64,000 bases of DNA, from contig JAUIKY010000012.1 in assembly GCA_030430535.1 (NCBI GenBank), positions 1 through 64,000 on the forward strand, written 5' to 3'. Origin of the DNA: Bacteroidia bacterium. Lineage in GTDB: Bacteria > Bacteroidota > Bacteroidia > Flavobacteriales > Flavobacteriaceae. This document shows, one piece after another, positions 31,412-31,789 of the stretch (positions within the stretch are counted from its first letter, which is position 1; the number at the start of each line of letters is the position of its first letter). The position numbers and the translations under genes are program-made. The notes under the pieces are model-generated. The model was given only the letters and a program-made list of their open reading frames with translations. It was not told the DNA's origin and ran no database searches.

Positions 31412-31789
31412 ATGGAAGTTCAAGGAAGAGTAAAAATGATTGGTGAAACCCAAACTTTTGGGAACAACGGATTTAGAAAAAGAGAAATTGTAGTGACTAC
31501 GGAAGAACAATACCCACAACACATTATGGTGGAATTTGTTCAAGATAAAACCGATTTGTTGAACAACTTTCAAGTAGGGCAACAAGTAAAAATTAACATC
31601 AACTTACGTGGCAGGGAGTGGGTAAACCCACAAGGCGAAACCAAATATTTCAACTCTATCCAAGGGTGGAGAATTGAAGCCTTACAGCCAGAAGCGGCTT
31701 CAGGAAATGTGCCACCGGTGCCACCAGCTGATGCTTTCGAGCCAGCAGGTGATTTAAACCAAGACGAGCACGACGATTTACCGTTTTAA
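31412..31789 (+). CDS. DUF3127 (OB-like) protein with SSB-type C-terminal tip
   Basis: MEVQGRVKMIGETQTFGNNGFRKREIVVTTEEQYPQHIMVEFVQDKTDLLNNFQVGQQVKININLRGREWVNPQGETKYFNSIQGWRIE; ends QDEHDDLPF. Confidence 0.88.
   Translation: MEVQGRVKMIGETQTFGNNGFRKREIVVTTEEQYPQHIMVEFVQDKTDLLNNFQVGQQVKININLRGREWVNPQGETKYFNSIQGWRIEALQPEAASGNVPPVPPADAFEPAGDLNQDEHDDLPF

Follow-up and report, generated by a model that had tools for sequence, protein, structure and literature searches.

DUF3127, a core protein of the Bacteroidia, as a likely second, tip-bearing relative of bacterial SSB

Introduction

Why does a small protein of the DUF3127 family end in the same residues as the single-stranded DNA-binding protein (SSB) of its own genome? 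The question is raised by a 64,000-nucleotide stretch of a Flavobacteriaceae genome (the window; GCA_030430535.1, contig JAUIKY010000012.1), which encodes both proteins. In bacteria, SSB and the tip at its C-terminus are generally regarded as universal and essential. The original prediction proposed that the DUF3127 protein may be a cryptic SSB-like OB-fold protein that takes part in the SSB interactome. Two outcomes that would have spoken against it, a tip that varies among homologues and the lack of a predicted OB fold, were checked by computation, and neither was observed. What we show by computation is an OB-fold prediction, homology to SSB, conservation of the tip, the setting of the gene in phages, and its distribution. 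We consider it likely that DUF3127 is a distantly related paralogue of SSB and serves as a second ssDNA-binding protein bearing the tip. If so, coating of ssDNA and recruitment of partners can be tasks of separate proteins, a core gene of unknown function in gut, oral, and marine bacteria acquires a role, and there are natural genetic backgrounds for testing which SSB function is essential.

Sequence features and predicted fold

The features of the 2 proteins are listed in Table 1. The DUF3127 product matches PF11325 in Pfam with an E-value of 3.4e-31 (107.7 bits, above the curated cut-off of 27), and the canonical SSB matches PF00436 (E 1.4e-30); IF3_C and DUF3221 also matched the DUF3127 protein, both below threshold. 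The C-terminal ends read DLNQDEHDDLPF and IQDDNDDLPF, respectively, such that the shared DDLPF tip first noticed at this locus is present in both ORF translations. In the AlphaFold2 model of the DUF3127 protein, pLDDT falls from the domain to a disordered P/A-rich linker.

Table 1. Features of the DUF3127 and SSB genes in the window
Feature	Position	Strand	Evidence
DUF3127 gene, 125 aa (PF11325 / phrog_4932)	31412..31789	+	ORF and profile matches
Predicted OB-fold domain, residues 1-92, b1-b2-b3-alpha-b4-b5	31412..31687	+	AlphaFold2 pLDDT about 90, fold search
P/A-rich disordered linker, residues 93-117	31688..31762	+	pLDDT 50-60, alignments
SSB-Ct-like tip DEHDDLPF, residues 118-125	31763..31786	+	Sequence and homologue alignments
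Canonical SSB (PF00436), 150 aa	2417..2869	+	ORF and Pfam; tip DDNDDLPF at 2843-2866

The model was built with an alignment of 37 close relatives, and its element order is that of an SSB-type OB fold. When it was compared with the PDB, the best 33 fold matches were all bacterial SSBs. The strength of these matches is modest (TM 0.43-0.47 by query length, rmsd about 7 Å), which counts against the second-SSB reading. With the fold taken from the model, the SSB features of an SSB-type OB fold, a disordered linker, and an acidic x-P-F tip are all present in DUF3127.

The first non-SSB match, at rank 34, is PriB, itself an SSB-like OB protein. DUF3127 might accordingly be a PriB-like adaptor. As an SSB paralogue dedicated to replication restart, it would bind both ssDNA and the primosome (PriA, DnaG, DnaB) without coating ssDNA in general, and its tip would dock it on PriA. 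We regard this as unlikely. PriB has neither linker nor tip, whereas the DUF3127 tip is present and conserved; PMC8509808 describes PriB as lacking the SSB C-terminal region.

The predicted OB domain carries conserved aromatic positions: F21, Y34, W70, Y79, F80, and W86. In an alignment of 39 diverse DUF3127 members, positions 21, 34, 79, 80, and 86 are aromatic in most, and 37 members have W, Y, or F at position 70; that this position is not strictly W was counted against a second SSB. The conservation of these positions argues against a further reading, in which DUF3127 is a decoy or regulator whose tip competes with SSB for partners and whose OB domain no longer binds ssDNA or has another ligand. 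DUF3127 usually coexists with a tipped SSB, as a decoy would, but we judge this reading very improbable in the light of the aromatic residues and of the phage and clade distributions described below.

Homology to SSB

The SSB-like OB-fold reading is backed by profile comparison as well as by the predicted fold. When domain-only profiles of DUF3127 and SSB, with the tip excluded, were compared by hhalign, the probability was 90% (P 1.6e-6); the reversed control gave 0.2%, and 20 column-shuffled controls gave at most 6.6%. In this alignment, W70, a candidate ssDNA-stacking residue, falls on an SSB Trp, which we take to be the counterpart of E. coli W88. The 17 best matches of the DUF3127 profile among PDB sequences were all SSBs, led by the Deinococcus radiodurans SSB (E 1e-7). 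In PHROGs, phrog_4932 was matched over the full length, residues 1-125 including the tip (E 9.2e-47), and phrog_44 matched the whole protein with an E-value of 1.6e-7; both are named “single strand DNA binding protein.” We rely on the PHROGs match, hhalign with its controls, the PDB profile search, and the HMM “a5” as clean comparisons. An iterated SSB HMM (also “sh1” of the G407 search described below) may have absorbed DUF3127 members, and its E-values for DUF3127 were therefore discounted.

Judged from these profiles, DUF3127 is distantly homologous to SSB. Its score against PF00436 (13.4 bits) lies under the curated cut-off of 26, which counts against the second-SSB reading; DUF3127 is thus a relative of the SSB family and no member by the PF00436 rule.

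Conservation of the C-terminal tip

The tip proved near-invariant when homologues were compared. We compared 110 distinct C-termini of homologues, taken from genomes and phages: PF closes 109 of them, DLPF closes 85, and the last 8 residues include 3.7 acidic ones on average. P124 and F125 are the sole invariant columns in the alignment of 39 members. The linker cannot be aligned across families and is conserved in part within the Flavobacteriaceae. In SSB, the tip is retained while the linker before it drifts, and the retained tip and drifting linker of DUF3127 follow this pattern. There are 2 exceptions to the tip: one homologue ends SIPPF (L053) and one has no tip (L052), the latter counting against a second SSB. 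The tipless homologue (L052:1387-1884, + strand, genome G006) ends NSTNVDDE, and the SSB of the same genome is tipped.

Short C-terminal motifs generally recur by chance, and the tip could be a coincidence or have some other function, for instance as a degradation signal. When the DNA of the window's own genome was scanned for [D/E]-x-P-F with TRR directly after it, there were 90 matches: 64 were read in context, 23 were TGG (no stop), one had an in-frame stop, and 2 (C96:4350 and C110:61979) are left out. Among the matches read, the only real proteins with an acidic run and tip were SSB, DUF3127, and the helicase DnaB. With only 3 such proteins found and a tip near-invariant across the phylum despite an unalignable linker, a chance tip was rejected, and coincidence or an unrelated role is, in our estimate, highly implausible.

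Phage relatives

A relative occurs in 122 phage records, and almost all of these bear the name of a Bacteroidota host. In Nonlabens phage P12024L, an Erf annealing protein is followed by a YqaJ exonuclease and then DUF3127, and a primase comes three genes later. The Cellulophaga phages phi18:3 and phi13:2 have RecT at a distance of a few genes upstream of DUF3127 and a DnaA-like gene downstream. Phages would use DUF3127 as the SSB of recombination operons. Its placement in this slot argues against a PriB-like adaptor, and its presence in phages argues against a decoy.

The phage members are already recognized in annotation, since RefSeq names many of them “single strand DNA binding protein.” The adjective “cryptic” in the original prediction is for this reason only partly apt: the SSB likeness stands, but PHROGs and RefSeq already apply the name to the phage relatives. 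What is already known, then, is the SSB superfamily and the annotation of phage relatives as SSB. The name is confined to phages, and chromosomal members remain “DUF3127,” even though the match to phrog_4932 places them in the same family. Our literature search found no paper discussing the chromosomal family; the sole paper found to name DUF3127 reports a domain match in the SSB of a Pantoea phage.

Distribution and chromosomal context

Of 397 genomes sampled from the phylum, 219 encode DUF3127. It occurs in all 46 genomes of the window's family (its own included), in 8/8 from the rest of the order, in 48/51 from the rest of the class, and in 117/292 beyond the class. Within the window's class, DUF3127 belongs to the core genes. 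A first new element is its likely role there as a core, tip-bearing second SSB encoded on the chromosome. Across 24 stretches, no conserved, telling neighbour of chromosomal DUF3127 was found, which counts against the second-SSB reading; in the same stretches, synteny of flavin reductase, DUF3127, and aat holds at the level of Flavobacteriaceae only. An anti-correlation between DUF3127 and SSB copy number was looked for across the phylum and was not clean. Most genomes retain a normal SSB, and the 2 proteins are therefore not simply interchangeable.

The window's own genome also encodes a second, short, tipless SSB, split over 2 contig ends (C80:7412-7681 and C39:2-166; L156 and L157). Full-length versions of such a tipless SSB occur commonly in the order.

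A sister family with tipless or undetected SSB

The second new element is the persistence of DUF3127 in genomes whose canonical SSB has lost the tip or went undetected. In one family of the window's order, probably Weeksellaceae (f2), all 30 genomes encode DUF3127, and the best copy in each ends in LPF. In 12 of the 30 (G012, G283, G329, G400, G401, G404, G412-G416, and G419), the only canonical SSB is short and tipless, ending straight after the OB fold; in G398, G406, and G407, no PF00436 protein was detected. In agreement with this, a repeat search that used an SSB alignment, at E-values up to 10, added only DUF3127, 2 stop-interrupted fragments, and noise in the 12 tipless-only genomes, returned DUF3127 alone in G406 and G407, and returned nothing in G398. 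The same search recovered a divergent tipped SSB in G409 that the first, filtered search had missed. It lies at L405:1336-1866 (+), between an rnhB-like gene immediately upstream and a ParB-like gene downstream, and is probably on a mobile element.

Since a filter can miss such divergent SSBs, G407 was searched without filters, over 1.45 of about 1.7 Mb (about 85%). In the searched portion, DUF3127 was the only protein matched by the clean model a5 (E 7e-5), and DUF3127 and DnaB were the only proteins with acidic tips. These 2 were also the tip carriers found in G398, which is 99% complete in 3 contigs; gaps are possible in G406 and G407. Phylum-wide, SSB is present in 395/397 genomes, so SSB-less genomes are over-represented in f2 (3/30 versus 2/389; Fisher p 0.003, with independence overstated because the genomes are related).

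We give roughly even chances to the proposal that, in this clade, canonical SSB has become tipless or been lost and DUF3127 is now the main, and in some genomes the only, ssDNA-binding protein, that is, an SSB displaced by a diverged paralogue. The retention of DUF3127 where SSB is tipless or not found speaks against a decoy, and genomes in which no SSB is detectable would still require some protein to coat ssDNA, a task that a PriB-like adaptor would not perform.

Proposed mechanism

For the second, tip-bearing SSB that we favor, we infer ssDNA binding, oligomeric state, partners, and replacement of SSB. The single OB domain would coat ssDNA through its conserved aromatic residues, probably as an oligomer, and the flexible linker would offer the acidic D-D-L-P-F tip to the SSB-Ct pockets of proteins such as RecO, PriA, RecQ, or RecJ. 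Docking of the tip would bring recombination and restart factors to ssDNA. In part of f2, the searches recovered no tipped SSB-fold protein other than DUF3127, and in a few genomes no other SSB-fold protein of any kind. A tipless SSB may share the work with DUF3127, the short SSB coating and DUF3127 recruiting; in the absence of SSB, both tasks would fall to DUF3127.

Relation to other SSBs

DUF3127 resembles bacterial SSB in OB-fold topology (predicted), disordered linker, and acidic x-P-F tip, probably also in its aromatic positions, and is distantly homologous to it in sequence. It differs in its shorter N-terminal half and in forming its own divergent family, usually present beside a normal SSB. 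Additional SSBs in one genome also occur in Firmicutes, as with SsbB and Staphylococcus aureus SsbC; both are close SSB paralogues, and SsbC is 33-38% identical to other SSBs (PMC5945547). In contrast, DUF3127 is far more diverged, and it keeps the tip where the short canonical SSB is tipless.

Acidic tips on other proteins

The replicative helicase DnaB of the window's own genome has an SSB-Ct-like tip, SFNDDDDSDVPF (G000:C10:6928, - strand; L182:1929-3527, - strand). In a set of 30 DnaB proteins, taken from the window's own genome and others in the phylum (including L183-L212), 29 end in F and 18 in PF; the ends are usually acidic (DDDIPF, DEVPF, DDAPF), and a long variable tail precedes them. 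Our literature search found no report of a DnaB with an SSB-Ct-like tip. The similarity suggests a docking site common to DnaB, SSB, and DUF3127; as a hint of a shared site at the replisome, it lends some weight to a PriB-like adaptor. A possible further tip carrier is a 148-aa protein in genome G329 (L445:1072-1515, +), which has no Pfam match and ends KTEDDDLPF.
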